From a virus: a DNA stretch of 35,654 nucleotides. The position numbers were made by a program, and so were the translations under genes. The stretch's first letter is position 1; every line of letters begins with the position of its first letter. Positions 1-17,787 of the stretch are shown here, piece by piece. The notes beneath the pieces are model-generated. The model worked only from the letters and a program-made list of their open reading frames with translations. It searched no databases and had not been told where the DNA came from. The DNA lies in IMG/VR virus record IMGVR_UViG_3300030060_006450, positions 1 to 35,654 of that record; one strand, given 5' to 3'.

Positions 1-1740
1 TGAAACGCCACCTTCCAATTCTTGGCGCATTTCAGCGTCGGCAGCGGCAAATTCAGTGCGAATATCTGCGCGGTCACCTGCAGTTGCAGTTTGTTCAGCC
101 AAGAAGTTTGCATTATTGAGGTTGTCGCCTGCAGCGAGTGTTGTCAGAGTTTGGAGCATATCAGCATCGATTGTGTCGTGCAGATCTTGAACAGCTTGAA
201 TTCTATCAGCAATTTCTGTGTCTACCTTGGCATCAAGAACGTTTTCTGCGTTTTGTGCGCGGGTTTGTTCTGAAGTAACTGCTGTTCTTGCAAGAGCAGC
301 TTCAGCTATAATTTTGTCTTCGAGTTTGCCGAGTGTATCATAATCAGCAGCAACATCGCCACGGATAACTACAAATTCATCATCGAACTTGGTTTCAATG
401 CGACCTTCTTCGTCACTTGCACGATTAACTTCAGTAGCAAGGTCAGCGCGAATGTCATCCTCTTCTGATCTCGCAAGAGCGGCTTCTTCTTGAATCTTGT
501 CTTCCAATTTTCCAAGAGTGTCAAAGTCACCAGCGACATCACCTTTGAGAGCCGCAACAAGGTCGGCGTCTGCAGAGGTAGCAAATGCTTGCGCGTCAGC
601 TTGGGCCTTAGCGACAGAACCTGCTTGGCTTGAATCTCCTTCAAGTACATCTAAGCTGTTTTGTTGAGCTGTTTGGACTGAAAGGATCTGGGTGTCAGCG
701 AGCTTGTAAGCGTCGTTGATTTCTTTGAGTGTGTCAAAATCAACTTCAGCATTTTCAAGAATTGCGTCGAGTCTTGCTTCTTCCACCTGGATCTTATCTT
801 CAAGTTTTCCAAGAGTGTTATAATCAGCACTGACGTCGCCTTCGATTTCAACGAACGCATCATCGAATTTGGTTTCAATGCGAGATTCTTCACCTTGAGC
901 GCGTGATGCCTCTGCCTGCTCTGCGGCGCGTGCAGTAGCAGCTTCTGCTTGGATTTTATCTTCAAGTTTTCCAAGAGTATCGAATTCGCCGCTAACGTCG
1001 CCACGAATAACTACAAATTCATCATCGAACTTAGTTTCAATGCGGCCTTCTTCGGCTACTGCGCGGTCAGCTTCAGAACCGATTGCTGTAGCATTGGCTT
1101 GTTCCGCAGCGCGTGCAGTAACAGCTTCTGCTTGAATCTTGTCTTCTAGCTTACCAAGCGTGTTGAAGTCGGCAGCAACATCACCTCTGATTGCGGCGAA
1201 CTCATCATCGAATTTGGTTTCAATGCGACCTTCTTCGCCTACGGCGCGGTCGATTTCGGAACCGATTGCTGTAGCATTAGCTTGCTCTGCGGCGCGTGCA
1301 GTAGCGGCTTCAGCTTGAACAGCATCTTCCAATTTTCCAAGAGTGTCGAAGTCACCAGCGACGTCACCTTTCAGATCGGAAACTTCTTGAGCCAACTCAC
1401 CACGAAGGGCGGCGCGGTCGTCAGAAGCAACAAGTGCTTCGGCGTCAATATCAGATTCAAGAACAGATTTAACATCGTTCAATTTTCTCATATTGACAAG
1501 AGCGTCATCACTAATTGTCAAATATTCTGATAATGTATATGGTAATGCCATATATCTAAGGTCAGCGAAGTTTGACATGTCGATTGTACCGTATAGTTCA
1601 GAACTAAAACCAGCTGATTGAGCAAGCTCCGTCATAGAAGCAAATTTTGTTCCATCAGCCTTTTTAAGTTCGATATCGATATTATCGGGTCTTGCACGAG
1701 TACGTGCGACTCTAACTAAATTTTTATTTTGTTCAGACAT
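1..1740 (-). CDS. Tail-fibre-like repeat protein, 3' part cut by window edge
   Basis: The frame starts with ATG at 1738-1740 and stays open to base 1, so at least 580 residues are present and the C-terminus lies outside the window. A ribosome-binding sequence AAGGAG lies about 10 bases before the ATG. The first ~115 residues are non-repetitive. The rest is built from recurring blocks with the core DTLGKLEDKIQ, an Ala/Glu-rich helical stretch (AEAATARAAEQANATAI type), GRIETKFDDEF and IRGDV. Six cores are visible. Such heptad-like, Ala/Glu-rich repeats are usual in trimeric coiled-coil shafts of phage tail fibres. The adhesin gene ends 72 bases upstream, so the two form a host-recognition pair. 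The receptor-binding tip, if any, is not in view. Fibre identity is inferred from repeat style and position. Confidence 0.7.
   Translation of the reverse strand, partial: MSEQNKNLVRVARTRARPDNIDIELKKADGTKFASMTELAQSAGFSSELYGTIDMSNFADLRYMALPYTLSEYLTISDDALVNMRKLNDVKSVLESDIDAEALVASDDRAALRGELAQEVSDLKGDVAGDFDTLGKLEDAVQAEAATARAAEQANATAIGSEIDRAVGEEGRIETKFDDEFAAIRGDVAADFNTLGKLEDKIQAEAVTARAAEQANATAIGSEADRAVAEEGRIETKFDDEFVVIRGDVSGEFDTLGKLEDKIQAEAATARAAEQAEASRAQGEESRIETKFDDAFVEIEGDVSADYNTLGKLEDKIQVEEARLDAILENAEVDFDTLKEINDAYKLADTQILSVQTAQQNSLDVLEGDSSQAGSVAKAQADAQAFATSADADLVAALKGDVAGDFDTLGKLEDKIQEEAALARSEEDDIRADLATEVNRASDEEGRIETKFDDEFVVIRGDVAADYDTLGKLEDKIIAEAALARTAVTSEQTRAQNAENVLDAKVDTEIADRIQAVQDLHDTIDADMLQTLTTLAAGDNLNNANFLAEQTATAGDRADIRTEFAAADAEMRQELEGGVS
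319..1349 (-). repeat. Six degenerate in-frame repeats in the fibre gene
   Basis: The DNA encoding the core ELGK/DTLGKLED recurs with its reference codon at 319, 502, 799, 961, 1144 and 1327. Spacings are 183, 297, 162, 183 and 183 bases, so the regular unit is 61 codons, with one longer and one shorter interval. The repeats are similar at nucleotide level but not identical, which suggests old duplication with drift, or selection on the protein. Confidence 0.85.
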
Positions 1741-1812
1741 ATTATTTTTTCTCCTTGGGGGTTTTCCCATTTAATAATATATGTTGACGACTTAAGGCGT
1801 CGTCGTACCTTT
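1741..1812 (-). other. Short intergenic spacer with small hairpin
   Basis: The 72 bases between the adhesin stop and the fibre start hold a 6-bp stem GACGAC/GTCGTC with a 7-base loop at 1786-1804, then the fibre ribosome-binding site. No T-run follows the stem in the direction of transcription, so it is not a convincing terminator. It may be an RNA processing or stability element, or chance. Confidence 0.35.
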
Positions 1813-4800
1813 TTATAATAGCCAATTTGAAATATCATCTGTTGTGACGATAGTCCCATCGGCTGTTGATGCACACCAAAGATCAATATTATAAGCATAA
1901 TTAAAATCAAGTATGTCTAGTGAAGTTAATACTGCACTCATTTGCGACTCATTATGAACGGCTGACCAATCTGGCAGCGCGATGTAAGTTGCGAAAGTAA
2001 AGTCAGACTTCATGATGACAATAGAAAATGCATCGTTTGCTTCTGCGAAGTCAACAACAACTGATCCAGGTAAAACATTCATCTTTAAAGTAAGGGCTCC
2101 ACCGGCTGCTGGCATTGTATAAACGCCTTCGCCGTATTCGATGAGCCAATTATTTGAAGTTGTGCCGAAATGCACTTGATTAATTTTACCTGTGTCTCCA
2201 TTGTCATGGACCTTGGTGAAAGATAATGGAACTGAATATTCATCCAGGTCCACAAGATAGACACAACCCTCTTCGGTTCCAATCAGAACCTTGCCAGCGG
2301 GTCCATATGCGGCGCACACAGGCGGGCTATATATACCGTGATCGGCAGGTCCGTAAGAACTAAATGAGGCCCAAGTTTCAAGATCTTGAGTGAAATACAA
2401 AACTGTGTTTCCACTGTCGTTTTTCAAATACAAGTTGGATCTATTGGAGCCGGCGTCTAATCCATGAACATATTTTACAATGTTTGACAATTGACCTTCA
2501 TGGCTCCAATCATAAGCCCCTTCGTCACCGGCTGGTGCTTGTGCAGGAGCATTTGGATCGTAATCACCGTGGAATTGATCAACTCCCATTGTTAGTCCAT
2601 CTGGCATATAGTAAGTTGTACCAGCTGCTGCTCCGGGCAGCGCACCCATGAGTTCGACTATTTCTGCTTCAGAAAGGGCTCTTCCATGGACAACAAAATG
2701 TGAAAGCTCACCGTTAAATACTTGACTATTAGGTGCCTTTCCGCCGATACAGAAGAACCCTGCATTGACTAACTCATCAAGTCCATCGGCTCCGAGACCG
2801 CCCCAGCCACCTTGGTAGCCGCCCATGGTTTTAACACCATCAAAATAAACAGTTATATCTCCGGTGTCACCTCCATTAACAACAGTCTCATCATATACCA
2901 TTGATACGTGATGCCATTGTCCATGACTTAATGGGTCTCCTTGCATGCCAGCACCATTATGCTGAATACCGCCAGTTGCTGGATACCACACAGTCATAGC
3001 GCCTAAGCCCGGATTTACTCTTATCAATGATGAAAACCTTCCGTCGAGTGTAAGTCTAAATCTGGACTGCGTGCCGCCACCGATGCCGAACATGTCAGAA
3101 ACAATCCAGTCATCGTTGCCATTGTGCTTAAACCAAAAACTAATAGTCATCTGATCTGTACTTTGCCTGTTAGCAACATAATCTGCGACCATATTGTCTA
3201 CCAATAGCTGTCCGCCTGATACATCAATAGTGTTTCTTTGCTGACCGTTGATGGTTTGAACAGAGTAAGTTGGCGATCCATGTGATGAAACACCGGCCAT
3301 ACCAGCGGTGAAGTCTAGTTCAGCGATCATATTATCAATATAATCTGCAGATGATCCTCCCAGAGTATGACTATGGCTTGTACCTACGGACGAAATTTCG
3401 TTGGCGACGTCCTCTCCCAAGTACAGCGGATAATATCCCTCTACGTCTAATGCGTCTGGCGGGAAGTCTCCATGGAATTGCAAACCGCCGCCGACGCCGC
3501 CGGGGATGCCATTTGGCATGTAGTAATTAACTCCACTTAAGCCATGTGTGTGGCTGTTTCCAGCCGGTGATGCCATGTCGGATCCGACTTGGGTTGTATA
3601 GATAGGAAAATACCCCTCTACCGCCATTGGTCCTTGTTCTGGACCCGGCTCTGTCTCTCCGGGGGCAATAGTGCCCACGTAAGAACCTCCGTCTGGGCCG
3701 GAGATGACTCCAGTACCTGCAGGAACTTCAGAGATTGACATATCGCCCGAATTTGGAAAATGTGGCACCCATCTGATATCGTAATCGGCAGAAAAACCAC
3801 CTCCGGGATTCGATAGTAATACTGTATTAGTATCCTCTCCATCCCAAGCTAACAATTCAGCGGCTTGAATACCATTGGTGCCATCAACAATTGCTTGAAA
3901 AAATGCACCATCGGCTGCGTTATCTCCGCCTAGTTCGTTCAAGTCATACTTCTTAATAAGTTCTTTGACAAGAGCATCTACATCCAAAGTTCCGCCAGAG
4001 CCATCATCAAAAGTAACTATTGTCACTAGCTCATCGGGATCTTCTATTTCAGCTACCATTGTTTTGATAGTCAAATCACCAATGTAAAATGGACCATATA
4101 CAGGATCTCCTTCGGGATTGGTTATGTAAGGATTGCCATTTTCAACTGGACTTAAACTAGGGTGTGCAAGGTAAGTCATGACAACCATCTGATCTGAAAC
4201 GGCGAGTTTGGAAATAAAGACAGATGCGTCAACACTGCTTTTTGCCAAAATTACGCCCGCTGCATCTACAACTGCAACATAAACGGTATGTGAGCCACCA
4301 GTTGCCACTGTGAGTACTGCATCGACACCTAAGCCTGTTAGGGCTTTTGCGCCGTTAATTGTTGCGCCCACATCGCCGAATTCTGTCAAAGATGCTGACC
4401 AGTTGGCTGCACCGTCAGAAACTGCAGTTGCGTTAGCAGTTCCAGTAACAGTAATGTCTGCGCCGGATACCGAAGCACTGGCTGAAATACCAGCCGAAGG
4501 TGGCCCGACTACAAATGATCCGTTTGATGGAGAGTGAGCAGCACTGTGTGCCAAAACTGTTCCATCGGCATTTAACGAAATCGTTACTATCTGTTCTTCT
4601 GTGTATTGTCCACCGACCAAAGACCACGAATAGGTATCATACGGAGCATCTAGAGTGTATGTTATTGCCTGATTCGCCTGATTGGTAGCGGGCATCGAGG
4701 CATTATATACCTCAACGCCAGATGAATTAGTGATCACCAGGAAGGTTCCGTTCCAGCCGTCGCCATAAGTGTCATTTTTTATGATGTCAACCGAAATAGT

Positions 4801-5376
4801 AGGGGAATTGTCAATGCTTGCTGAATTTGCCACAACGACAAGTCCAGCATCATCGATTGCTGCCACATAGACAGTGTGGACTCCATGAGGAGTCGGAGTT
4901 TCTGTTGCGGACGCACCTACTGACATTGCTGTGCCACCATGTGCTTGTCCTTCGACAAAAATGTCAGTCAAGGCATATGCCCATCCTGTTGCGCCTGCTT
5001 CCGTTGCTGGTGTGTTTATATCAGCGGAAATAGTAATTACTCCATTACTTGAAGACAGGGTTGGTGAAATGTCCGGTGTTGCTGGTGTCAAATCGAAGGC
5101 ACCACTTAGAACACTACCAGCCGAACTGAATAGCAATTGTTCCGAAGTGTCATCTCTTGTTAGCGTAGCCGTGACCTCACTCATCCAAGCCTGATTTATG
5201 AAAGCCCAAGTATAAGGCTCTGCATCAAGAGTAAACTGTACAGTTTGCTCGTTTCCGCCTGCCAAAGTATGAGATTCGACAACATTGTTGTCTGCATCAT
5301 AAATTTGGAAAGTAGAGCCGTTCCATCCGTCACCGTAAGAGTCTTGCATTAAAAAAGTAACATTTACTGTAGACAT
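1813..5376 (-). CDS. Large modular adhesin / receptor-binding virion protein (LamG domain)
   Basis: This 1187-residue protein has no signal peptide, fitting a virion-borne adhesin. Two tandem ~190-residue modules open it: each begins with a (S/T)YGDGWNG motif (residues 12-20 and 202-210), followed by an Ig-like segment ending in HTVYVA (about 167-172 and 363-368). A linker region carries SHTH and SHSH motifs (608-611, 667-670), like the HxH metal-binding motifs of some phage fibre tips. Residues ~700-910 look like a LamG/concanavalin-type jelly roll (TISFWFK, GQWHHVSMVYD, YFDGV). YYMP...QFHGD occurs at 618-637 and 922-939, flanking LamG. The last ~230 residues resemble short propeller blades. 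The start follows a perfect AAGGAGGT with 6-base spacing. Carbohydrate binding is likely but the receptor is unknown. Confidence 0.75.
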   Translation of the reverse strand: MSTVNVTFLMQDSYGDGWNGSTFQIYDADNNVVESHTLAGGNEQTVQFTLDAEPYTWAFINQAWMSEVTATLTRDDTSEQLLFSSAGSVLSGAFDLTPATPDISPTLSSSNGVITISADINTPATEAGATGWAYALTDIFVEGQAHGGTAMSVGASATETPTPHGVHTVYVAAIDDAGLVVVANSASIDNSPTISVDIIKNDTYGDGWNGTFLVITNSSGVEVYNASMPATNQANQAITYTLDAPYDTYSWSLVGGQYTEEQIVTISLNADGTVLAHSAAHSPSNGSFVVGPPSAGISASASVSGADITVTGTANATAVSDGAANWSASLTEFGDVGATINGAKALTGLGVDAVLTVATGGSHTVYVAVVDAAGVILAKSSVDASVFISKLAVSDQMVVMTYLAHPSLSPVENGNPYITNPEGDPVYGPFYIGDLTIKTMVAEIEDPDELVTIVTFDDGSGGTLDVDALVKELIKKYDLNELGGDNAADGAFFQAIVDGTNGIQAAELLAWDGEDTNTVLLSNPGGGFSADYDIRWVPHFPNSGDMSISEVPAGTGVISGPDGGSYVGTIAPGETEPGPEQGPMAVEGYFPIYTTQVGSDMASPAGNSHTHGLSGVNYYMPNGIPGGVGGGLQFHGDFPPDALDVEGYYPLYLGEDVANEISSVGTSHSHTLGGSSADYIDNMIAELDFTAGMAGVSSHGSPTYSVQTINGQQRNTIDVSGGQLLVDNMVADYVANRQSTDQMTISFWFKHNGNDDWIVSDMFGIGGGTQSRFRLTLDGRFSSLIRVNPGLGAMTVWYPATGGIQHNGAGMQGDPLSHGQWHHVSMVYDETVVNGGDTGDITVYFDGVKTMGGYQGGWGGLGADGLDELVNAGFFCIGGKAPNSQVFNGELSHFVVHGRALSEAEIVELMGALPGAAAGTTYYMPDGLTMGVDQFHGDYDPNAPAQAPAGDEGAYDWSHEGQLSNIVKYVHGLDAGSNRSNLYLKNDSGNTVLYFTQDLETWASFSSYGPADHGIYSPPVCAAYGPAGKVLIGTEEGCVYLVDLDEYSVPLSFTKVHDNGDTGKINQVHFGTTSNNWLIEYGEGVYTMPAAGGALTLKMNVLPGSVVVDFAEANDAFSIVIMKSDFTFATYIALPDWSAVHNESQMSAVLTSLDILDFNYAYNIDLWCASTADGTIVTTDDISNWLL

Positions 5377-5643: not shown

Positions 5644-5681
5644 CAAAAAAAATAAGTCCCGTAAGAAAACTTACAAGACTT
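5644..5681 (-). terminator. Rho-independent terminator after the PrkA cassette
   Basis: On the minus strand AAGTCTTGTAAG (5670-5681) pairs with CTTACGGGACTT (5654-5665) across a TTTT loop. This is a 12-bp stem with two G:U pairs, followed by A and eight T. It starts 37 bases after the prkA stop codon, so it is well placed to end the transcript of the three-gene cassette. Confidence 0.85.
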
Positions 5682-5717: not shown

Positions 5718-7658
5718 TTAGCTATCTCTCCAGAGATTGTTTGAAGCATATTTAATAACTTCATTTGCTGAAGACTCACTGTATCCGTATTCTTCCATTA
5801 AGGTTTGTACCATTTCGTTGTATTTGCCTTGTTGTTTTTTATCTCTAGACTTTGATTTTGTCACAATTCTTGAAATATCACGGACAGAGGCAAGAAGTTT
5901 ATTTTCAATTGCCTCTTTTAGCGGGCCGTAAGAAGTCCAATCAATCTGCTCACCTTTTCTTAATTTAGCGAACATATAAGCTGTAATATCGGCTCTAAAA
6001 TTTTCTCTTGCGGAGCCGATGATTCCAATCTGTTCTTCGATTGATTGTAAGAAATCTTCATCTGCATGCATTTCTTCATTGGTTACCTTGTCTTTGACCT
6101 TGAAGCCATTAACATAAGCCTCGGCGTGATCTAAATAATTGTCAAACAGTGATTCTGCTTGTTCTTGATAGGCGGAAACAAAGGCTTTTGTAATTTCTGT
6201 CTCTAATATCTTTAGATATTCGTCGTGCAACTCTTTCTGGAGGAATGAGAGGTATCTTTCCCTCAAGTCTTCGACAACAACCTGTTCCTTGACTTGCTTA
6301 ATAAGTGCTTCTCGGATTGAAATAGGGGTTACCATATTGTTTTCAGAGTCTGCGACAGCGGCGTCAATGGATTTCATAATAAATCTTGTCGATATGCCAG
6401 TCATCCCCTCATCTCTCACTTCTTCCCTAAGATCATTGATATCAATTTTTTTAATATATCCTTTTTCGACGACCTCTTGACCATTATAAATTTTCATTTT
6501 AGTCATTGGGTCAACCTTGTTGGATGGCTTTAGTCTTGTCAACACTGAAAACATCGCAGCCATTTCTAAAGTGTGAGGTGCAATGTGGGCATCAAAATCA
6601 GACTCATCTAGTAATTTTTTATAAATTTTCTGCTCTTCATTTACTTCAAGGCAATACGGCACATTGACCCTGACAATTCTGTCAAGAATCGCCTCGTTCG
6701 TGTTCTCTGATTTAAATTTAATCCACTCTGCTTCATTACAGTGTGCGAGGATAACACCATCAAAGTAAATCATGGCCCCTTTGCCGGGAGATGGGACTGC
6801 TTTTTCTTGTGTTGCTGTGATCATTGTGTGCAAGAATTCAATCTCGTTCTTGAAAACCTCAACAAATTCAACAATTCCACGATTTCCTACGTTGAATGCC
6901 CCGTTAAGGCTCAAGGCTCGTGGGTCGTCTTCCGGATAGAGATCTAATTTTGAAATGTCTTCTGACCCTATTAGAATGCTTGTGTCTTGAGTGTTTGCGT
7001 CCATAGGAGGAACTACACCGACCCCTCTTCTGCCACGAATTGAAAAACTGGTTTCTTTGACTGGGAATTTCATATAATCGCCACCATATTCCTCTAGTAG
7101 TTTGTGGCGACAGACTGGACAGAGATCACCTTCAACGCGGACGCCGTATAATTCCTGGAATTGATCTCTCAAGCTTCTAGGGATGAGGTGAATGGGTTCT
7201 TCGTTAATCGGGCACCCATCAAGTGCATAAAGTGGACCACTCTGTTCAAGTGCCCGCTTGATGTGTTCAACTAAAGCCGACTTACCCGCACCGACAGGTC
7301 CGAGCAACAAGAGGACTTGGCGGCTTTCTTCACCTTTCATAGCGGCTGAATGGAGGTATCTCATAACTTTTGCCAAAGATCTCTCCATTCCAAAAAATCT
7401 TGTCTGAAAATAGTCATAAGTCTTTACAGGTTCGCCATTAAAAAGAGTATTACAACGAGAGTCGTCCTCTGTCATTCTGGTGATACCTTTGTTTACGATT
7501 GTCTTGTAAAGTCTCTTGTGAGCTAACTGAGAAATTGTCTTGTTTTCCTCTAGTAGCTCAAGATAATCAGAAAAAGTGCCTTTAAACTTTTCTCTTTTAC
7601 TGTCATTCTTGTGCTTTTCAGCTAGTTCTAAAAATTTATTAGTTTTTGATTCTGTCAT
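5718..7658 (-). CDS. prkA: Serine protein kinase PrkA/YeaG family
   Basis: The product has 646 residues, about the length of cellular PrkA/YeaG, and appears complete. It has an N-terminal AAA-like ATPase domain with Walker A GPVGAGKS at about 120-127 and a Walker B-like stretch at about 296-309 (YFDGVILAHCNE), the family's VEFVE and LDRIVRVNVPYCL stretches, and the PrkA C-terminal kinase-like domain (ERYLSFL, ARENFR, QIDWTSY). A CPVC pair near 180-183 is absent from E. coli YeaG as I recall it. Cellular homologues phosphorylate serine/threonine and act in starvation and stationary-phase responses. The chosen ATG lies 2 bases after the spoVR stop with GGGAA in front; an in-frame ATG at 7671-7673 would add five residues. 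It is the third gene of a coupled cassette and is followed by a terminator. Its substrate here is unknown. Confidence 0.93.
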   Translation of the reverse strand: MTESKTNKFLELAEKHKNDSKREKFKGTFSDYLELLEENKTISQLAHKRLYKTIVNKGITRMTEDDSRCNTLFNGEPVKTYDYFQTRFFGMERSLAKVMRYLHSAAMKGEESRQVLLLLGPVGAGKSALVEHIKRALEQSGPLYALDGCPINEEPIHLIPRSLRDQFQELYGVRVEGDLCPVCRHKLLEEYGGDYMKFPVKETSFSIRGRRGVGVVPPMDANTQDTSILIGSEDISKLDLYPEDDPRALSLNGAFNVGNRGIVEFVEVFKNEIEFLHTMITATQEKAVPSPGKGAMIYFDGVILAHCNEAEWIKFKSENTNEAILDRIVRVNVPYCLEVNEEQKIYKKLLDESDFDAHIAPHTLEMAAMFSVLTRLKPSNKVDPMTKMKIYNGQEVVEKGYIKKIDINDLREEVRDEGMTGISTRFIMKSIDAAVADSENNMVTPISIREALIKQVKEQVVVEDLRERYLSFLQKELHDEYLKILETEITKAFVSAYQEQAESLFDNYLDHAEAYVNGFKVKDKVTNEEMHADEDFLQSIEEQIGIIGSARENFRADITAYMFAKLRKGEQIDWTSYGPLKEAIENKLLASVRDISRIVTKSKSRDKKQQGKYNEMVQTLMEEYGYSESSANEVIKYASNNLWRDS

Positions 7659-7660
7659 TT

Positions 7661-8962
7661 TTAAAATTCCCATATTTCATCTTCGATGATTGTTATAAAT
7701 TCCACATTGTCATTCCACAAATAACATATATTGTCGTATACTTTATTTGCGTAAGCTAAATCCAAATCTCGCCCGTCATGTTCATGCTTTAAAAAGAGAG
7801 TATTTGTCTTTCTTTCGTAGTCTTCGACATAAACAATCGGAACTCCATTCAGACCCACACTACTAATTAGAGCGTTCCTGACGCTTTTCCAACCTTCTTC
7901 ATCAGAAATTTCATTAATTGCATAATTTCCCGTATTTTTCTGATACGAATAAGAAAATAAATTCAATTCGTTACACATCTCTTCGTCCAAATATTTACGA
8001 ATAAAAGATTCATCATCATGGGTTTGTCTAACCAGCATACACTCGTCAAAGCCATGCTCTCTTTCTATTTTTTTAAATAAAGAATAACCCAAGTGGTAAG
8101 GATTAACTCTGCCAACTATTGGTCTGACAACTTGATTGTGAGTCTTTAAAAATGCCAAATGGTATTTGTCTGGCAAATTTAAGTCGTACATAATTTTTTC
8201 GTGAATAAGGACTGCCCAGCCTTCGTTCATAATTTTTGTTTGCCCTTGAGGGACAAAATACTTCGATCTTCTCTCGACCATTTCTACCAAGTCCTGTTGC
8301 CAGTCTTCTAAGTCTCTGGCATTTTGGCGAATGAACTCTAATAAATTATATTCTTTTCTAACGAGACCGACATCTAAATTAATTTTGCCTTTTGTCTTTT
8401 CGAAAAGATCTCTTTTCGCATCTTCTTGACTTATTCTATTAATACCTGGTGTTCTGGGTATTTGATACTGAATAGAATGACATGCGTCTAAAATTCTCTC
8501 AACTTTGTCAATTCCAATATTTGGATCTTCAATATATTGCTGTACACGCTTTCCGGCCGACTTAAATCTCGCGATTACATTGTCTGGGTCTGTATGTGCA
8601 AACATTCTGTTGTTCTTAAAGAAGTCAGAGTGTCCGACGCAGTGCGACATTGTTAATAAGTGAGTACTCATTGGGTTTTCGAGCATGAGATAGGCAATCG
8701 AGGGGTTTGAATTAATAATCATTTCGTATGGTAAGCCCTCCATACCCAAATTATATCTTGTTATAGTTCTTTCAAAAGATTTTCCAAATGACCAGTGGCG
8801 ATAGTGGGTTGGTAGCCCTGTATATGCCATGGCACCGATCATTTCATGGTAATTTAATATCTCATATTCTATTGGGAACCAGTCTAAGTTGTATTTTTCC
8901 TTTCCAATGGCACAAATCTCTTCATCCCACTTTTGTAATTCTTTTACTGTCCAGTCTTTCAT
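7661..8962 (-). CDS. spoVR: SpoVR/YcgB family protein
   Basis: The 434-residue product matches the SpoVR family over nearly its whole length. Visible landmarks are HYRHWSFGKSFE, YEMIINSNPSIAYLMLEN, FFKNNRMF, QTKIMNEGWAVL and the VNPYHLGY stretch. It is shorter than E. coli YcgB (about 510 residues), mainly by smaller loops. SpoVR was named for a role in the Bacillus spore cortex; in Gram-negative bacteria it is genetically linked to PrkA and YeaH, with unknown biochemistry. I chose ATG 8960-8962 because GGAGG lies 9 bases upstream and the ATG overlaps the stop of the DUF444 gene (ATGA). A longer frame to 9001 exists but lies within the upstream gene. The product is cytoplasmic, with no signal peptide or membrane segment. 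Confidence 0.93.
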   Translation of the reverse strand: MKDWTVKELQKWDEEICAIGKEKYNLDWFPIEYEILNYHEMIGAMAYTGLPTHYRHWSFGKSFERTITRYNLGMEGLPYEMIINSNPSIAYLMLENPMSTHLLTMSHCVGHSDFFKNNRMFAHTDPDNVIARFKSAGKRVQQYIEDPNIGIDKVERILDACHSIQYQIPRTPGINRISQEDAKRDLFEKTKGKINLDVGLVRKEYNLLEFIRQNARDLEDWQQDLVEMVERRSKYFVPQGQTKIMNEGWAVLIHEKIMYDLNLPDKYHLAFLKTHNQVVRPIVGRVNPYHLGYSLFKKIEREHGFDECMLVRQTHDDESFIRKYLDEEMCNELNLFSYSYQKNTGNYAINEISDEEGWKSVRNALISSVGLNGVPIVYVEDYERKTNTLFLKHEHDGRDLDLAYANKVYDNICYLWNDNVEFITIIEDEIWEF

Positions 8963-10170
8963 CGACTTTTTCCTCCAAATATGTGCTGAAATGATGGCCA
9001 AATATGATTTGGTTTTGATAACTTTACTTTTTTAAATGAATCGTCTGTTATTGGTGTTAGTTTTTTCCACAAATTTGTTGCTTCGCTCTGATTATATCTG
9101 AAAGATTTTGTTAATATTGATAAATCAGACTCCGGATGAGACATGGGGTCAATTTCTGCGTAGCAGATCATTTGGTTTATTTCTTTTAGTTCGGTAAAAA
9201 GAGCGACAGTCTTTGGGTCATCAAAAGACCAGTTTTCGCCGTCGCCAGAATAAAAAGTATATATATTCCAACTCGAAGGATGGTATCTTTTGTTTATGAT
9301 TTCTTTTGTCATTTCCAATGCGGAAGACATAATCGTCCCTCCCGTTGTGCCTCTCTTAAAAAAATCATCCTCATTTACTTCTCTGGCTTCGGTGCAGTGG
9401 GAGATAAAGACAACTTCAATATTGTCATATTTATATCTCAAAAATTGATATAATAAAAAGTAAAAACTTCTAGCAATATACTTTTTGTCTTTTGTCATGG
9501 AACCAGAAACATCCATCAGGAAGAAAATCACTGCCGAGTTGTTCTCTTGCGGTTTTGGCTTCATGTGTTTATATTTTAAATCATCCTCGTGAAATGGGAA
9601 CCTTTCACCGGACTCTGGATCATATGCTCCGGAAGCAATTGCCATTTTTTTACGACGAATTTTTCTTTTTATTGTTTCTTTCTTAGAAAGTTTGGATCTC
9701 ATGCCTTTTTTTCTAAAGCCGCTTCGTTTTAGCTTGTGATCTTTAATAAATTTAAATCTTTTTCTTTCTAAGTCTGGCAATTCTAAGTCTTGAAACAAGT
9801 ATTCTGCTAACTCATCTAATGTTATCTCCACGTCGTAGTATTCATCACCAGATTCATTTGATCCTTTTTTGCCCTGTGCTTTTTGTTTTTGCTTTCCGCC
9901 CTTTCTTAAAACTTGACCTCTTTTTATCTTTTTATCACCTGCCGAACCTGCCTTTTGGTTTTCGTTATTTTCTCCATAAATAAAGTGATATTCTTTAATA
10001 CCCTTGACGGGAATCTTTACTTTCTTTTTGCCATCTTGACCAATAATGGACTCGTCAGCTACCACATCTTTTATGCCCTCTCTAAGAGCTTTGTCTATTT
10101 TTTGTTTATGTCTTTGTCTATCTGCTGCCGAGCGGTCAGCAGATGTTTTATGTTCTCTAAAAATACTCAT
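8959..10170 (-). CDS. yeaH: DUF444 / YeaH (YhbH) family protein, von Willebrand A-like domain
   Basis: The product has 403 residues. The N-terminal ~200 are strongly basic and low in complexity (RKKGMRSKLSKKETIKRKIRRKK type). Residues ~212-390 form the vWA-like part, with a MIDAS metal site: DVSGSM at 220-225, TTGGT near 275-279 and the SGDGENW aspartate at about 310. MSIFREHKTSADRSAADRQRHKQ at the start and YNPxxWNIY-like sequence (YHPSSWNIY) are typical of YeaH/YhbH. In E. coli yeaH follows yeaG (prkA) and both belong to the general stress/nitrogen-starvation response. Its ATG overlaps the stop of the upstream neck-like gene by 4 bases, and its stop overlaps the spoVR start. The cassette is therefore translationally tied to phage structural genes. 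Confidence 0.93.
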   Translation of the reverse strand: MSIFREHKTSADRSAADRQRHKQKIDKALREGIKDVVADESIIGQDGKKKVKIPVKGIKEYHFIYGENNENQKAGSAGDKKIKRGQVLRKGGKQKQKAQGKKGSNESGDEYYDVEITLDELAEYLFQDLELPDLERKRFKFIKDHKLKRSGFRKKGMRSKLSKKETIKRKIRRKKMAIASGAYDPESGERFPFHEDDLKYKHMKPKPQENNSAVIFFLMDVSGSMTKDKKYIARSFYFLLYQFLRYKYDNIEVVFISHCTEAREVNEDDFFKRGTTGGTIMSSALEMTKEIINKRYHPSSWNIYTFYSGDGENWSFDDPKTVALFTELKEINQMICYAEIDPMSHPESDLSILTKSFRYNQSEATNLWKKLTPITDDSFKKVKLSKPNHIWPSFQHIFGGKSR

Positions 10171-10994
10171 ACTATTGTTAAAACCTCTAAAAGAATTCTG
10201 TTACCCGAAGCAATGGGGAAGGAATTAAAAAGAAAACCTTCTTGAACATAATATTCACCGCTGGAAGGGTCGGAACCAAGAGTCTGCCTTTGACCGTTTT
10301 GAAAAACTGCTGCTGCAGCTAGTGGAATTGCTCCAGTAACACTCAAAGTAGAGTTCAAGTTTGTATCTGCTACAATTGTAGAACCGGAAACGTCGTGAAA
10401 ATATATAACACGGACGATACTTTTTTCGTGGTCGTGATAAGGGCCCGACTCGGCATTTGTGAGACCATCGGCATCAACGAGAGAAGACTTTATTTCTTCG
10501 GACATGACAGACATATCCATAATACCACGTCGGGTCCTAATACACTTAGCAGATATCTGAAAAAGGTGGTCTATTTGTCCAAAGAGTTGTCTGTCTTCTG
10601 TCAAGGATACAATTTCATAAAATGAATCACCATATTGAACATAATCTCCCTCCCTTAGCATCAAATCTTGATCTTCGTGGAGCCTTCTTTCGTGAAATTT
10701 TACAGTGATTGATTTTTCTTTGTCTAAGCCATAATTTTCAGTGGTAGTTTTGATGCCGTCAAACTCGACAAGGGCATAAACCCTCACAGGAGGCAAAAAA
10801 GATTTCTCTATCGCTTCACCATATATTGGATGAAAGTTTGTATACTCCATAGAAACTGGCAAATAGACTATTTGTTGACCGACTACTCTCTCTAGGAGTT
10901 CGTCGTTTACTTGCTTTACTAAATTTCTTTCTTTTTCTCCCAAAAATAGCGGAGGAGGGGGATTACTTGGTTTTGACCATTTGTTATCAGACAT
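10167..10994 (-). CDS. Probable neck / head-completion protein
   Basis: The product has 275 residues, soluble, with no signal or membrane segment. A charged N-terminus (GEKERNLVKQVNDELLERVVGQ) is followed by YLPVSMEYTNFHPIYGEAIEKSFLPPVRVYALVEF and a beta-rich middle (REGDYVQYGDSFYEIVSLTED). The pattern 'YGE...K.F.PP..V.A.VE' followed by a 'GD.V.YGD..YEI' barrel resembles head-closure and neck proteins of tailed phages. Its place two genes after the capsid gene supports a connector role, like T4 gp13/gp14, though I cannot say which. It starts 2 bases after the preceding gene's stop, and its stop overlaps the yeaH start. Confidence 0.6.
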   Translation of the reverse strand: MSDNKWSKPSNPPPPLFLGEKERNLVKQVNDELLERVVGQQIVYLPVSMEYTNFHPIYGEAIEKSFLPPVRVYALVEFDGIKTTTENYGLDKEKSITVKFHERRLHEDQDLMLREGDYVQYGDSFYEIVSLTEDRQLFGQIDHLFQISAKCIRTRRGIMDMSVMSEEIKSSLVDADGLTNAESGPYHDHEKSIVRVIYFHDVSGSTIVADTNLNSTLSVTGAIPLAAAAVFQNGQRQTLGSDPSSGEYYVQEGFLFNSFPIASGNRILLEVLTIV

Positions 10995-10996
10995 AA

Positions 10997-11866
10997 TTAA
11001 TATTCCTTCTTATCGCCGACAATCACTCTTTCTCTACCAAATCTTATTTCAGCTGCGGATTCTCGTACTGTAACCTTTGGCTGGTTATCATTTTTATCAG
11101 AGCCCATTAGATATCCTAAAACTTTTAAATTTATTGTTGTTTTAAAGTTTCTTTCCTCTTCTGTAAGGTTTGAGATATTATTTTCTAAACCGAAGTCTCC
11201 TTGAACGAATCCTTCGAATCTATGCCCATCTTTATTTATAAAAAAGTTGTTAATTTGACCTGTAAATGCCATAAATGGAGTAACTATTTCATTCATCTGT
11301 TGCTGATATTCTGTATTTACCGTTAGTTTATAATTTATTACAACATAAGTCGGCAATGGCATTGTTATAGTTTCATATACTACCTTTTCATTCTTAAACG
11401 GAAAAGTTTTTTGTTTAAAAAGTCTTTCTGAATCGGCATTGGCAAAATTAGAAGTTTTTTCTTGCTGGATTCTTCTGGCGACCTTGATTGCGCCGCCCTT
11501 TGCATCGTTCTGGCGAGGGACATGTGACCAAGCAACGCCCTTCATGTTTGGGTCTTTTTCCATACTTGTCCGCTCTATGCTTAGGGCTGGTAATACAAAG
11601 ATATCTTTACTTCTTAAATCTTTATTGTTTTTTGTCTGAAACGACCTTTCGGGCATCGACCAAATTAAAGGAAGTTTCTTAAATCCTTCATTTGTGGTAC
11701 AAAAAATATTAAGTTCCTCGTCTAACCATTCATACAGGGCAAAGTCGATAGTTTCTATCGTAGATGGCATAAAAGTGACCTCTTTCAGTCCAGGAGTTTC
11801 TTCGCCCGGTTTTTTATCTTGAAAATAAGGTCTAAATCCATCATATTGTTTTTTTCTGCTGCTCAT
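10997..11866 (-). CDS. Probable tail-connector protein, possibly tail sheath stabiliser/terminator-like
   Basis: The product has 289 residues. A central stretch (ETITMPLPTYVVINYKLTVNTEYQQQMNEIVTPFMAF) reads 'beta strand, then a helix in which copies are counted toward a closed ring'. It resembles the core of T4 gp15/gp3-type tail completion proteins ('...LPY.l.f.l.i.t.n..d..qi.eqilPfF'). The gene lies between two neck-like genes with gaps of 2-3 bases. The N-terminus contains an aromatic, acidic DFALYEWLDEELNIF stretch. The exact T4 counterpart is unproven. Confidence 0.55.
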   Translation of the reverse strand: MSSRKKQYDGFRPYFQDKKPGEETPGLKEVTFMPSTIETIDFALYEWLDEELNIFCTTNEGFKKLPLIWSMPERSFQTKNNKDLRSKDIFVLPALSIERTSMEKDPNMKGVAWSHVPRQNDAKGGAIKVARRIQQEKTSNFANADSERLFKQKTFPFKNEKVVYETITMPLPTYVVINYKLTVNTEYQQQMNEIVTPFMAFTGQINNFFINKDGHRFEGFVQGDFGLENNISNLTEEERNFKTTINLKVLGYLMGSDKNDNQPKVTVRESAAEIRFGRERVIVGDKKEY

Positions 11867-11869
11867 TAT

Positions 11870-13138
11870 TTACCCTTGGAAAATTATCATTGGAATCTTT
11901 TTCTGAATTGTTTCTACTGCTTCTACTTTTTCAGCATCAACCTTGGCCAACTCAGCGTATGTTAATTGATCCATGATTTCTTTAAGTTCTTCTCTTAGTT
12001 TTTCTTGCTCATCCTTTGCCTGACTCAACAATGTATCAGAATTTAAATTAACAGATTCGCCAGGAATAGGTATTGTCTGAAATTTTCCTCTGATTTGTGC
12101 TAAAGTTTCTTTGGATAAGGCGAGCGCAAAGCGGCGGATCCATTGTTTACCAATTGCATTAATGTTCTCATATGGAATATTGTCAAACGGTAAAGTATTT
12201 AAATTATTTATTCCGTCTGCACCATTGTCATAATCGTCATTGTTTTCCCAAGCTAAGGGCATAACAGAAAAATCTACCCACATGTGATTATAATCTGAAA
12301 GAGTCTGGGGTGCTGGGAATATTCTAAGTTTATTATTCTTTAACTCGTAAGAATAATGAGATAGCCTTGTATAAATATGATCTTCATATGCCATGGCTTG
12401 TAATTTATTTTGCCATGCAGGAACTATTTCAAATGTTGAATCGTCTGTATATTGACCGTAATAGTTTAGATTGCCGACGACATTTAATCCGCCAAAGTAT
12501 CCGAAGAATCTCCACATGGCATTTGGTGTTTTATAATATACTTTCTTTACAATTACTCTCTTGTCTCCAACTACACCAGCATATGGTGCTCCACCGCCGG
12601 CTGGTTCATTTCCTGATGCTGATGATCCAGAAATAATTGCTTGTAAATCGTAGTCTTGTTGACCACGAACGAGATTAAATGATGCAGAATAAATAGGAAT
12701 AGTTCCACCAACATCTGCAGCGGAAGAGTACCTATCTGAAACTCTTTTTGCGTACTCAAACATCACTCTTGGGAATTTTAAGTTGACATTTTCTGGGCCG
12801 GATAATCTCTGACCTCTATGATCGAATGTCCCAGTTGTCTGACCTAAAACATCTGATAAAATATTCTTTGATTGGTGTAAATTTACCAAATAACTGTATT
12901 CCAATACAGCCTCTTGATAATTGGCGTATACGTTTTCTGCTTTTAATTCAATATCTAAGACATCTCCACCAATTTTTCTATATGTATATGCAACCTGATC
13001 AGAAGCTCCTGATAGGAATTGTGAAGAATCGGAATATACATCAAATGGCAGCGTATCTGCGACAGCGGATACAGTACCCGATGCTGGCAAGATTGATTTG
13101 CTCATCTGACTTGCCGGTGTTAATGTTGGAAAAGCCAT
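11870..13138 (-). CDS. Probable neck / virion structural protein
   Basis: The product has 422 residues. The body is rich in Tyr, Asn and Ser with many short beta-like stretches (VYANYQEAVLEYSYLVNLHQSKNILSDVLG; KKVYYKTPNAMWRFFGYFGG). The end has a charged helix (SQAKDEQEKLREELKEIMDQLTYAELAKVDAEKVEAVETIQKK). There is no signal peptide. It is the first gene after the capsid terminator and starts the connector block, so a head-to-tail joining role is likely. I do not recognise a specific family motif. The start is followed by MAFPTLTPASQMSKS, with a purine-rich GGGAGGAA sequence just upstream. Confidence 0.6.
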   Translation of the reverse strand: MAFPTLTPASQMSKSILPASGTVSAVADTLPFDVYSDSSQFLSGASDQVAYTYRKIGGDVLDIELKAENVYANYQEAVLEYSYLVNLHQSKNILSDVLGQTTGTFDHRGQRLSGPENVNLKFPRVMFEYAKRVSDRYSSAADVGGTIPIYSASFNLVRGQQDYDLQAIISGSSASGNEPAGGGAPYAGVVGDKRVIVKKVYYKTPNAMWRFFGYFGGLNVVGNLNYYGQYTDDSTFEIVPAWQNKLQAMAYEDHIYTRLSHYSYELKNNKLRIFPAPQTLSDYNHMWVDFSVMPLAWENNDDYDNGADGINNLNTLPFDNIPYENINAIGKQWIRRFALALSKETLAQIRGKFQTIPIPGESVNLNSDTLLSQAKDEQEKLREELKEIMDQLTYAELAKVDAEKVEAVETIQKKIPMIIFQG

Positions 13139-13165
13139 GCAAATTCCTCCCTAGCATTAAGTAGT

Positions 13166-13206
13166 TTCCAGAAACACAAAACCCCTCTACAAAATTGCAG
13201 AGGGGC
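13166..13206 (-). terminator. Rho-independent terminator after the major capsid gene
   Basis: On the minus strand CCCCTCT (13199-13205) pairs with AGAGGGG (13182-13188) across a 10-base loop, then TTTTGTGTTT follows. It begins 29 bases after the capsid stop codon. A strong GC stem in AT-rich surroundings is a typical end to the abundant capsid transcript, probably with partial read-through to the neck genes. Confidence 0.88.
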
Positions 13207-13234
13207 ATGTAAATTAGTGACTTATTGTTTAAGA

Positions 13235-14944
13235 CTATACTAGGTCAGCAATGATAACCAATCCGTACATATCTGGACGAACCATCTTCTTCGCATAACG
13301 AGTCATCACGCCCTTACGTGGCACGAAGTCCTCTGTTCCGAAGATTGTCGGTGTCATCTGGAGTGGTACATATGGTGCGTAAACGTATCCGCTTTCTAGG
13401 AAAGAAGAACCTTTGCGTCCACAAAGTACTACGTTTCTTGGGAAGTAAGGATCAACGTAAACGTCGAACTTCTTGCTCAAGGAACCAACTCTAACTGCTC
13501 CGACTTGACCACGATCATCATCGTGAGTGACGGAACCACGGAATCCAGCGGTGAACTCAAGAAGGTTTGCAACTTCTGGTGAAACCACGATGAAGTTTGC
13601 TCCGCCTCTTAAGGTCTTACGGTGAATTTGTGCTGAAACGTCGTTGATGGTCTCAACAAGGGTTTCGTACCATTCAGAGACATTACCAGTGAAGTCTGGG
13701 AATGATGCTCCGGTGATAGCTGCGCCAGTTGTTCTGTTTACGAACTTACCCGGCAGACGTGACCAGTAGAGTGTAGATGCGGTTGCACCTTTAACAAGGT
13801 CTTCCAAGATTTCTTGGTCGATCTCAAGAGCGATGTGCTCCGAAAGGATAGAAGTCAACTCAACTTCTGCATCCAAGTTATGGTATGCGTTCAAGTCTTG
13901 AGCCAATTCTGGTGTCCACTTAGCCTTAAGCTTCTTGGTCTTCGCTGTAACAGCAACAGAATCAACCTTGATGTCGATTTCTGGGATTGCTGCTTCCGCT
14001 TCGAGACCCCATTCGGTTGCACCTACAACTGCGCCAACAGTTGCTGCTGCGCCGATGTTGTCATCGATAACGTAGTCCCAGCTTCCAATACCGTCTAGAG
14101 AAGTACTTAGAGCTGCAAGGTCTTCAGAACCAGTAGCTGCCAAGACAACCAAAAGGTTACCAGCGTTTGTTTCGTCATCACGAGTCAAGCGACGTGTGAT
14201 ACGACCTGCACCGAGTGAACCAGAAGCAACTTCATTGATAATTGTTACATAATCTTTGATGTTGAACTGATCGCTAGTAAGGTCAGATAGAGCAATTCTA
14301 GCAACCGCTACATTGAGCCCTTCAAGATCTGGGTCGAAACGAACAAGCTTATCGACACCAGCTGATGAACTGTATGCAGTATCAAGCCAGAAAGTAGTAC
14401 CGGGGTTACCAACAGTACCTGATGCAATCATTGTGGTTGCAGCAGCTGAAGAACCGGTTGGGCTTGAGTAGCCGTTGTTTAGTGCATATGCGCTAAGTTC
14501 TGCGTTACGACCTGACAATGAAACACCGCCAGTAATCTGAGAAGCAACCTTTCCGCCACCGTATACTGATTCACCAGCAAGGTAGTCCAAACGAGTTGTT
14601 GTTTCTGAAGAATATGTGAAGTCCAAGAAGAAAATGAGGCCCGATGGCAAGCTCATTGGCTGAACTGATACAAGATCGTTAGCGATTAATCCGCCGAATA
14701 CACGGCGAACAATTGGGAATGCAACTGCAGAGAATCCTTCGACATCTCCGCCCTGCATTGAAGAAGCTTCGCGAAGAAGTTCCTTTGCTTGGTTTTCAAG
14801 AAGGCAAGCCATACCTTGTTTGGTACGCTCGTTAGTAAGTCCTTCCAAGAGACCTGTCTTTTCCCACTTATTGAGAAGAGCAGCTCCTTCCTTGGAGAGA
14901 TCACGTCTAACAATACCTTCGGTTAATTTGTTAATAATTGACAT
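13235..14944 (-). CDS. 23: Major capsid protein, T4 gp23-like
   Basis: The product has 569 residues, somewhat longer than T4 gp23. The N-terminus (MSIINKLTEGIVRRDLSKEGAALLNKWEKTGLLEG) and the FPIVRRVF.....N.LVSVQPMS.PSG.IFFLDF stretch are typical of gp23-type capsid proteins. So are the later KWTPELAQDLNAYHNLDAEVELTSILSEHIALEID segment and the C-terminal YAPYVPLQMTPTI and RYAKKMV parts. An LRE site before Ala60 fits the (L/I)xE cleavage rule of T4-type prohead proteases, so residues 1-59 are probably removed during maturation. The gene follows the scaffold gene by 16 bases, and GGAG lies just upstream of the start. It is less AT-rich than its neighbours, as expected for a highly expressed gene. 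A GC-rich terminator follows. Confidence 0.95.
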   Translation of the reverse strand: MSIINKLTEGIVRRDLSKEGAALLNKWEKTGLLEGLTNERTKQGMACLLENQAKELLREASSMQGGDVEGFSAVAFPIVRRVFGGLIANDLVSVQPMSLPSGLIFFLDFTYSSETTTRLDYLAGESVYGGGKVASQITGGVSLSGRNAELSAYALNNGYSSPTGSSAAATTMIASGTVGNPGTTFWLDTAYSSSAGVDKLVRFDPDLEGLNVAVARIALSDLTSDQFNIKDYVTIINEVASGSLGAGRITRRLTRDDETNAGNLLVVLAATGSEDLAALSTSLDGIGSWDYVIDDNIGAAATVGAVVGATEWGLEAEAAIPEIDIKVDSVAVTAKTKKLKAKWTPELAQDLNAYHNLDAEVELTSILSEHIALEIDQEILEDLVKGATASTLYWSRLPGKFVNRTTGAAITGASFPDFTGNVSEWYETLVETINDVSAQIHRKTLRGGANFIVVSPEVANLLEFTAGFRGSVTHDDDRGQVGAVRVGSLSKKFDVYVDPYFPRNVVLCGRKGSSFLESGYVYAPYVPLQMTPTIFGTEDFVPRKGVMTRYAKKMVRPDMYGLVIIADLV

Positions 14945-14960
14945 TTTAAAAATCTCCTTT

Positions 14961-15938
14961 TTATTTGTTTTCTTTAATGCCGGCTAGAATTTGCATTCTG
15001 CTTGAAAATTGCGGAATGTCCGTTCTAGCTTCTCTTCTGGGTAAAGTATTAGTCGGTCTTTCGATGGTCTCACGGAGCGATTTTGGCTGTGCTTTACCCT
15101 TCACACTGCCCACTGCGTTTTTAAGAGTTTCAAAAATAACCTTTGCTTCATTAATCGAATCGGCGTTTGACAGAGCTTCGACAACAGTGTTTCTTTGTCG
15201 CTCATTCAAGGAGTTGTCTGTTAAAACTTCGTTCGTGTATAAAAGTCGTGCGTTAGATAAACTTGCTTTTTCGACCTGCTCTTTTAAAACAGAAATGATA
15301 TTTTTCATTTTGCTGTTTTGTTCAGAAAGTCGATCTCTAGCGGCAACTAATTCTTTATTTTGTTCTTCAGCAGCTGTGGCTGAAAGTTGCGCGAGTCTAA
15401 GTTCTTCTTTATATTTCATAATATCTTCTGGAGTACCTGCCCAACCACTTTTTTGTGGTTCGATATCTACAACCAATTCTTCTAAAAGCTCTTCTACGTC
15501 AGAAATTTCTATTTCTTCTTCTAGTGTCGCTTGAATGTCGGCGGTTGGGACTTCCATTTCGGAACCCAAAGAAGGAGGTTCGGATGGTAAAGTATCCATC
15601 AACGACTCATGTGGTGCTGGATCTCCGACCAAATCTTCTTCGGCAGACGATAATGCATTAGCCATGTCCTTAAGGTCTTCCATGTTCAAAACAATTTCGG
15701 AATCATCATCGGCGATTTCGTCATCAAATGCATTTGGAATACTATCTTCTAGTGCATCCGACTCATCGTTTTGTTCTGGGGCCTCGGTGGGCTCTTCGTC
15801 TTCTTGTTCAAAAAGGTTTTCTACAACCTCTTTAATATCTGCAGAATATTTATTTAAAATTGCTGCTTCTGCATTTTTAATGGCTGCTTCTTTTAGTGCG
15901 GCGGCATCAATAATAGCTTGTTCTAATAATGAGGACAT
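14961..15938 (-). CDS. 22: Prohead core scaffold protein, T4 gp22-like
   Basis: The product has 325 residues, strongly acidic in the middle (EQEDEEPTEAPEQNDE and similar runs, about 45-160). A long predicted coiled coil (about 170-250: KEELRLAQLSATAAEEQNKELVAARDRLSEQNSKMKN...) is followed by a basic C-terminus (PRREARTDIPQFSSRMQILAGIKENK). Position directly before the capsid gene, acidic coiled-coil composition and a basic tail that could contact the capsid protein fit gp22 scaffold proteins, which fill the prohead and are then degraded by gp21 protease. Several (L/I)xE sites occur, including LLE at the N-terminus. GGGAG lies before the start. Confidence 0.85.
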   Translation of the reverse strand: MSSLLEQAIIDAAALKEAAIKNAEAAILNKYSADIKEVVENLFEQEDEEPTEAPEQNDESDALEDSIPNAFDDEIADDDSEIVLNMEDLKDMANALSSAEEDLVGDPAPHESLMDTLPSEPPSLGSEMEVPTADIQATLEEEIEISDVEELLEELVVDIEPQKSGWAGTPEDIMKYKEELRLAQLSATAAEEQNKELVAARDRLSEQNSKMKNIISVLKEQVEKASLSNARLLYTNEVLTDNSLNERQRNTVVEALSNADSINEAKVIFETLKNAVGSVKGKAQPKSLRETIERPTNTLPRREARTDIPQFSSRMQILAGIKENK

Positions 15939-15974
15939 AAAAGTACTCCCTTTAATAAAAAATTATCTCAAAAA

Positions 15975-15982
15975 TAAATAGT
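15975..15982 (-). promoter_or_regulatory. ACTATTTA element, candidate late promoter before the scaffold gene
   Basis: ACTATTTA is read on the minus strand 36 bases upstream of the scaffold start, embedded in AT-rich sequence (AATAATAAACTATTTATTTTTG). The same octamer precedes the genes at 16457 and 33671. It is a variant of the AT-rich -10-like boxes used by T4-type late promoters. This is a pattern call only. Confidence 0.35.
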
Positions 15983-15989
15983 TTATTAT

Positions 15990-16015
15990 TTTATAAAAAG
16001 ACAAATTTTTATAAA
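15990..16015 (-). repeat. Perfect AT-only inverted repeat upstream of the scaffold gene
   Basis: TTTATAAAAA (15990-15999) and TTTTTATAAA (16006-16015) form a perfect 10-bp stem around a 6-base loop. It lies in the 96-base spacer between the small virion gene and the scaffold gene. It could be a weak terminator for the upstream gene or a binding site. The stem contains no G or C. Confidence 0.6.
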
Positions 16016-16034
16016 GGTGATTATTCGTTGTTTA

Positions 16035-16457: not shown

Positions 16458-16481
16458 TTTTAAAATGCTCCATTTTTATTA

Positions 16482-16489
16482 TAAATAGT
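16482..16489 (-). promoter_or_regulatory. ACTATTTA element before the small virion gene
   Basis: The octamer lies 24 bases upstream of the ATG at 16457, in the 39-base gap after the bS21 stop (AACAATAACTATTTATAATAAAAATGGAG). It is the second of three intergenic copies. Confidence 0.35.
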
Positions 16490-16496
16490 TATTGTT

Positions 16497-16718: not shown

Positions 16719-16729
16719 AATAAACCTCT

Positions 16730-17766: not shown

Positions 17767-17787
17767 TTTTTATTCCTCTTAAAGTAG

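Follow-up and report, generated by a model that had tools for sequence, protein, structure and literature searches.

A vWA-SpoVR-PrkA cassette of large phages is an intact, widespread and repeatedly captured variant of a bacterial module

We analyzed a stretch of 35,654 bases that makes up the whole of IMG/VR virus record IMGVR_UViG_3300030060_006450, classed as linear and referred to here as the window, in which three adjacent genes encode a DUF444/YeaH/YhbH-type von Willebrand factor A (vWA) protein, a SpoVR-like protein and the AAA+ protein PrkA (YeaG). The cassette is genuine: a widespread viral form of a known bacterial module, intact, maintained by selection and captured by phages repeatedly. 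PrkA-YeaH-SpoVR is common in bacteria, where the YcgB-YeaH-YeaG triplet is co-conserved (PMC2375023), and the functions claimed for it conflict: kinase, protease and metabolic brake. Single genes of the trio have already been annotated in phages; no paper that we found in the open-access literature describes the three together as a unit carried by phages, and their recurrent capture appears to be unreported. For its role, the best overall explanation, to which we assign a probability of roughly one half, is an ATP-driven remodelling machine that changes the physiology of the infected host. The three genes are:

8959..10170, minus strand: DUF444/YeaH/YhbH-type vWA protein, 403 amino acids (Pfam DUF444, E 3e-107, 359.8 bits)
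7661..8962, minus strand: SpoVR-like protein, 433 amino acids (Pfam SpoVR, E 3e-115, 385.6 bits, profile positions 1-405 of 407)
5718..7673, minus strand: PrkA (YeaG) AAA+ protein, 651 amino acids (Pfam AAA_PrkA, E 1e-148, and PrkA_C, 4e-80, both full length)

The genes follow one another in the order vWA, SpoVR, PrkA, all full length and overlapping. An earlier reading of the letters alone (the sequence-only reading) had described three adjacent full-length frames, which is borne out by Pfam matches of E 1e-107 to 1e-148 over nearly the full length of the proteins. The motifs it named were likewise recovered: the vWA protein has DVSGSM at residue 220, TTGGT at 275 and SGDGENW at 308, and PrkA has an intact Walker A motif, GPVGAGKS, at residue 125. 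Residues D220, S222, S224, T279 and D310 of the metal-ion-dependent adhesion site (MIDAS; D-x-S-x-S ... T ... D) are invariant in 13 diverse vWA sequences, and the SpoVR sequence contains HxxGH ... NEGWA. PrkA scores 495 bits for AAA_PrkA and 270 bits for PrkA_C against a gathering cut-off of 25. All three proteins fall below NCBI equivalog cut-offs, PrkA with 418.8 against 576 bits for the E. coli-type model and the vWA protein with 376 against 468 bits for its best NCBIfam match, spore_yhbH; by these scores the vWA protein is closest, among NCBI models, to Bacillus YhbH, and the trio proteins are divergent members of their families. The C-terminal SpoVR_C domain is recognizable but divergent in the window SpoVR, where it stays under its cut-off (21.6 vs 27.6 bits).

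The ATG of the vWA gene, the first of the trio, overlaps the stop of a phage gene at 10167-10994. The TTG start listed for SpoVR at 9001 is probably not the true one, because a start at the ATG at 8962 creates a 4-base overlap of the ATGA type that many relatives share; PrkA has an alternative ATG start at 7658. The G+C content of the trio (34-39%) equals that of the phage backbone, and PHROGs already contains a phage family for each of the three genes.

Co-occurrence of all three families in viral genomes, the check proposed with the sequence-only reading, was strongly positive. Searching IMG/VR with the window PrkA protein returned 47 loci, and a broad PrkA alignment returned at least 256 relatives, the best 80 of which are all at least 61% identical to the window PrkA and lie on contigs that reach 293 kb. 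Among 108 distinct viral contigs, the window included and duplicates removed, PrkA and SpoVR were each present in 108/108 and the vWA gene, and with it the full trio, in 105/108; the three contigs without a vWA gene begin inside SpoVR. The order vWA-SpoVR-PrkA is constant in the window's viral clade, adjacent genes mostly overlapping or lying a few bases apart, and the AAA+ gene is paired with the vWA gene at every untruncated viral locus of this clade. The T4-type capsid protein Gp23 was found for 11 of the 13 long contigs or genomes tested. Two further groups, obtained with sequences of ~600-kb phages as queries, had the full trio in 63/80 and 75/80 loci, the incomplete loci mostly being cut by contig ends; some of their contigs may not be viral, since Gp23 and terminase are present on several long ones, not on all. 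Taken together, the trio occurs on hundreds of phage contigs, in no fewer than four lineages that acquired it independently, and it seems to be used by phages as one unit.

Some individual loci depart from the common layout. In L023 and L024 the vWA gene (around 7453-8659) is split into two overlapping frames, by a frameshift or an assembly error, and in L007 (14459-16357; LR756504, a 636-kb phage) SpoVR is 633 amino acids long, with an intein-like insert right after NEG of NEG[WC]. A conserved protein of ~430 amino acids lies closely after the trio in about 54 IMG/VR contigs (e.g. L048, 12307-13614; L044, 12742-14016), one member having a weak GroEL-like PHROG match.

The PrkA, SpoVR and vWA trees are concordant and recover the window clade as one group, with Shimodaira-Hasegawa-like approximate likelihood-ratio (SH-aLRT) support of 99, 100 and 100. 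Its nearest cellular relatives, with PrkA 55-61% identical, are the 'type-2' trios found in some Bacillota (L138-L143, L198-L202), which are sister or near-sister to the clade in each of the three trees; PrkA of Pseudomonadota and Bdellovibrionota is about 33-38% identical to the window's. The sequence-only reading would have been undone by trees placing each gene inside one host strain, and the genes sit instead in an old viral clade. The type-2 trios differ from the window's in having the cellular order, on bacterial contigs of up to 491 kb, and some of these genomes also hold a second, more ordinary PrkA elsewhere. Because the window clade is a single viral group in all three trees, nearest to this second trio of Bacillota, it probably acquired the cassette once, as a block, with the gene order rotated. 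With the bacterial prkA-yeaH(yhbH)-spoVR(ycgB) group at large, the window shares the three families, full length, adjacent and with motifs intact; it differs in the order vWA-SpoVR-PrkA, in scoring under the equivalog cut-offs and in belonging to a viral clade of its own.

Thermus phages, L006-like phages and L008-like phages are placed elsewhere in the trees, outside the window clade. Approximately unbiased (AU) tests rejected a single viral clade (p 0.0017) as well as any pairing of the marine clade with Thermus, L006-like or L008-like phages (p under 1e-30), which points to at least four captures by phages, all three genes being kept in each; the trees are quick ones, with Thermus phages on long branches and each phylum sampled by roughly 60-150 genomes. 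The Thermus phages phiYS40, TMA, phiLo, Lalka8 and MN1 have a complete trio in the window's order (with one gene inserted in phiYS40) and genes already annotated 'serine kinase' and 'SpoVR', but their PrkA is about 33% identical, represents a separate capture by the AU test and has Asp at the position of YeaG K426, where the window protein has lysine. The two groups that include uncultured ~600-kb phages (LR745206/LR756504 and LR756511) along with IMG/VR relatives also carry a complete trio, with a T4-type capsid gene on several contigs, but in the order PrkA-vWA-SpoVR, and their PrkA is either nested among Pseudomonadota or placed with Bdellovibrionota. In the Ralstonia jumbo phage RsoM2USA, SpoVR (ORF28) and PrkA (ORF30) are annotated close together, whereas we came across no mention of DUF444 (PMC8504454).

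Nearly all cellular loci seen have the order PrkA-vWA-SpoVR. Because the rotated order occurs in the window clade, in Thermus phages and also in three Bacillota chromosomes (L203-L205), the rotation would either have arisen more than once or, in one case, predate capture. Three bacterial contigs from metagenome-assembled genomes (MAGs; L134-L136) with the viral trio group within the viral clade, and misbinning of phage contigs in reference genomes is the best account of them: L134, of Methylococcaceae MAG TMED69, is a 306-kb contig that itself carries Gp23, the genome of L136 has Gp23 on another contig, and no Gp23 was found in the genome of L135. YeaG-YeaH of Enterobacter phage LAU1 lies at the record edge, probably in flanking host DNA, and was used solely as a cellular reference.

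The trio is under strong purifying selection. Between the window and its nearest relative (L011), the ratio of nonsynonymous to synonymous substitution rates (dN/dS) is 0.014 for PrkA, 0.022 for SpoVR and 0.017 for the vWA protein, lower than for the capsid (0.040) and scaffold (0.095) genes, although synonymous sites are near saturation and the values accordingly rough. Decay, which the sequence-only reading had considered unlikely, is excluded, with all frames open and dN/dS at 0.014-0.022.

The window most likely represents part of a larger genome; relatives reach 120-293 kb. Every major gene is on the minus strand, and the joint presence of Gp23 capsid, Gp20 portal and large terminase places the carrier among T4-like myoviruses. 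The features that bear on transcription of the trio, and the head genes beyond them, are:

5654..5681, minus strand: terminator-like hairpin and T-run just past the prkA stop (terminator scan and sequence)
10167..10994, minus strand: phage protein, 275 amino acids, directly upstream of the vWA gene, its stop overlapping the vWA ATG
10997..11866, minus strand: phage protein, 289 amino acids, of the same operon and subclade as its 275-amino-acid neighbor
11870..13138, minus strand: head-tail adaptor-like (neck) protein, 422 amino acids (PHROG 211, head-tail adaptor Ad2, E 2e-11)
13181..13206, minus strand: terminator-like hairpin past the major capsid gene (terminator scan)
13235..14944, minus strand: Gp23 major capsid protein, T4 type (Pfam Gp23, E 2e-75)
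17149-17766, minus strand: head protease, T4 type
19779-21740, minus strand: Gp20 portal, T4 type
21746-23335, minus strand: large terminase, T4 type

The sequence-only reading had placed phage structural genes on both sides of the trio. This holds upstream, where undoubted T4-type head genes (Gp23, protease, Gp20, terminase and the head-tail adaptor-like gene) lie within 10167-23335, but not downstream, where no PHROG family gave a structural call at a convincing score for the proteins at 1-1770 and 1813-5376. The 275-amino-acid protein recurs in 22 contigs of the window's subclade and has no family match in Pfam or PHROGs. The hairpin past the capsid gene likely separates capsid transcription from what follows, and the one past prkA is likely the 3' end of the transcript; given these two hairpins, the neck genes and the trio likely form a single transcription unit, with 11870..13138 as its first gene. 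The argument is one of position and not of count, since terminator-like sites number 12 in the window against 8.9 ± 3.1 expected. The trio is probably transcribed with the neck genes and hence late. ATAAATA, the T4 late promoter core, is about twofold enriched in the window (23 vs 11 expected), yet its sites do not mark obvious operon starts and none lies directly ahead of the inferred operon, so that it is the position of the operon, and not a promoter, that argues for late timing; a sigma-70 promoter scan of the window was near chance level.

The AlphaFold2 model of PrkA has moderate confidence (predicted local distance difference test score, pLDDT, 77.7) and comprises an AAA+ half and an all-helical C-terminal half (389-651) without a kinase beta lobe. 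VIA-align ranked NorQ and NorQ-NorD structures first (Z 12.7, 235 residues, 4.2 Å), some of the top NorQ structures having been solved with the NorD vWA domain, and gave CbbQ2 a Z of 11.6, tied with RuvBL, ClpB and Lon. The best matches are AAA+ proteins only, and no kinase row was listed, which alone excludes nothing; by sequence, PrkA matches the solved structures 9xip, 9xiq and 9xir, titled 'Serine protein kinase', while SpoVR and the vWA protein have no sequence match to any solved structure. NorQ and CbbQ are MoxR AAA+ ATPases that act with vWA partners to activate enzymes. The pairs NorQ-NorD and CbbQ-CbbO thus resemble the trio in setting an AAA+ ATPase beside a vWA partner and include the best fold matches of PrkA, but they have no SpoVR component, and PrkA is a separate family with its own large helical C-terminal domain. 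The neighboring vWA gene makes MoxR-type logic attractive here.

For SpoVR (model pLDDT 90.5), Foldseek returned nothing significant (best E 0.12), and the top VIA-align rows were nearly all gluzincin-type zinc peptidases, with Z up to 12.0, a middling score of a kind common for helical proteins. The protein has HxxGH and NEG[WFC] motifs in which H107, H111 and E247 are invariant among the tabulated sequences, none of which has the Glu at position 2 of the catalytic HExxH motif. Since the three residues never vary and the catalytic Glu is never present, the sequence suggests a metal site without ordinary peptidase chemistry, and SpoVR looks like a predicted zinc-peptidase-type (gluzincin-like) fold lacking the catalytic glutamate.

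In the remodelling-machine reading, the trio is an operon of host origin that one lineage of large marine T4-like phages has long kept, and we infer that its three products form one ATP-driven protein-remodelling machine with a PrkA AAA+ ring. The MIDAS-bearing partner YeaH/YhbH would couple the ring to a client, and SpoVR, a putative metal-site protein with a zinc-peptidase-like fold, would be effector or client, a mode of action nearer to the MoxR AAA+/vWA pairs than to a signalling kinase. Expressed late with the neck genes in the window phage, the machine would alter the physiology of the infected cell, for example by a metabolic brake and stress protection as for E. coli YeaG-YeaH, and would thereby keep a nutrient-poor host productive until lysis. 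YeaG and YeaH cooperate as a metabolic brake in nitrogen-starved E. coli, and it is on these genetics that the starvation reading rests (PMC10954441, PMC4664914); by analogy, it is plausible that the trio changes the host's starvation or stationary-phase state or aids infection of slow-growing cells, as the sequence-only reading had it. The RpoS link is an E. coli fact, which cannot be carried over to whatever host the window phage has. Joint retention, repeated block capture and strong selection in phages suggest one unit that matters during infection, and the cultured Thermus phages with the trio provide a route to test its role.

Several points weigh against this reading. The structure predictions behind it cover PrkA and SpoVR singly. 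Other AAA+ proteins differ from NorQ by no more than 1-2 Z units, which keeps the MoxR likeness of PrkA from being decisive, and the neck-gene operon is found in 20-22 contigs only, so the timing of the trio may differ elsewhere. Judged by terminase (45-48%) and portal (40%), the nearest phages in culture are Flavobacterium phage immuto and Microcystis phage Mel-JY01; neither has PrkA, and the trio is hence not essential to this phage type. More tentatively, and with rather less belief, we consider a bolder form in which the trio would be a NorQD-like three-part machine with SpoVR as a metal-binding pseudo-peptidase, taken up as a block at least four times, and a general means of host control by viruses that has so far been mistaken for a kinase or a sporulation gene; unrelated large phages would have captured the block repeatedly because the machine directly serves the infection cycle.

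It is unlikely that the AAA+/vWA/SpoVR complex serves virion morphogenesis, as a chaperone dedicated to head-neck joining during assembly or maturation. The trio does share an operon with neck genes in the window clade, lies between portal/minor head genes and TerL in Thermus phage Lalka8, and is 1-2 kb from the terminase gene in phiYS40. However, the neck/capsid neighborhood is confined to 20-22 contigs of the window's subclade, which weakens morphogenesis as a general role, and in most long relatives tested outside that subclade the capsid gene is at least tens of kb from the trio, whose neighbors there are PhoH, a helicase or a pyridoxal phosphate (PLP) enzyme. A 429-amino-acid protein follows the trio in about half of the marine contigs, and PhoH then in 40; given these neighbors, a purely structural role for the whole viral group is unlikely. 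In addition, the closest cultured relatives assemble without PrkA, and the cellular trio works in cells without phage.

We give little credence to counter-defence or superinfection control, whereby the trio would remodel or disable a defence or toxin-antitoxin complex or shield the cell from other phages. In E. coli, YeaG influences the toxin-antitoxin modules mqsRA and dinJ-yafQ (PMC4664914), AAA+/vWA pairs lend themselves to taking complexes apart, and repeated capture by unrelated phages fits a general benefit, but no PADLOC model matched above noise (best E 0.006) and, within the window, no defence or anti-defence genes were recognized beside the trio.

Improbable, too, is a phage Ser/Thr kinase pathway that phosphorylates host proteins and mimics the RpoS-dependent starvation response, the kinase signalling of the sequence-only reading. 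PrkA is labelled a kinase in several databases, and the window protein keeps the lysine equivalent to YeaG K426, the mutant of which is described as catalytically defective (PMC10954441). Yet this position is Asp in Thermus-phage and L008 PrkA, and a B. anthracis homologue, when purified, showed negligible activity as a kinase or a protease (PMC13001217). With published findings at odds and a C-terminal half predicted to be entirely helical, a kinase role for PrkA is doubtful.

Very little speaks for sporulation auxiliary genes, with viruses inducing or exploiting endospore formation as proposed for oxygen-minimum-zone viromes, where spoVR is the most abundant sporulation-annotated viral gene (PMC8940887). 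The nearest cellular relatives are Bacillota trios and the vWA protein is closest to YhbH, but the trio is widespread in non-sporulating phyla, so that the SpoVR name does not imply sporulation, and no further sporulation gene was recognized in the window; viral spoVR in ocean surveys should be read with corresponding caution. An assembly chimera, contamination or recent, decaying host cargo, for which the membership of each gene in a bacterial family is the sole support found, is ruled out by the same phage-trio junction in more than 20 independent contigs, contrary to the chimera that might have overturned the sequence-only reading, and is further countered by matching G+C, open frames, purifying selection and the trio's own old viral clade.

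The remaining features of the window are:

1-1770, minus strand: coiled-coil repeat-rich protein, cut by the contig end
1813-5376, minus strand: 1187-amino-acid protein with a laminin-G/lectin domain, downstream of the trio
25852-29013, minus strand: SbcCD-like protein
29024-29977, minus strand: primase

The 1187-amino-acid protein, a possible adhesin, has a YGDGWNG segment twice at its N-terminal side and is poorly conserved among relatives, and the coiled-coil protein consists of repeats of roughly 60 amino acids (GDVxxDFNTLGKLEDKIQAEA...).

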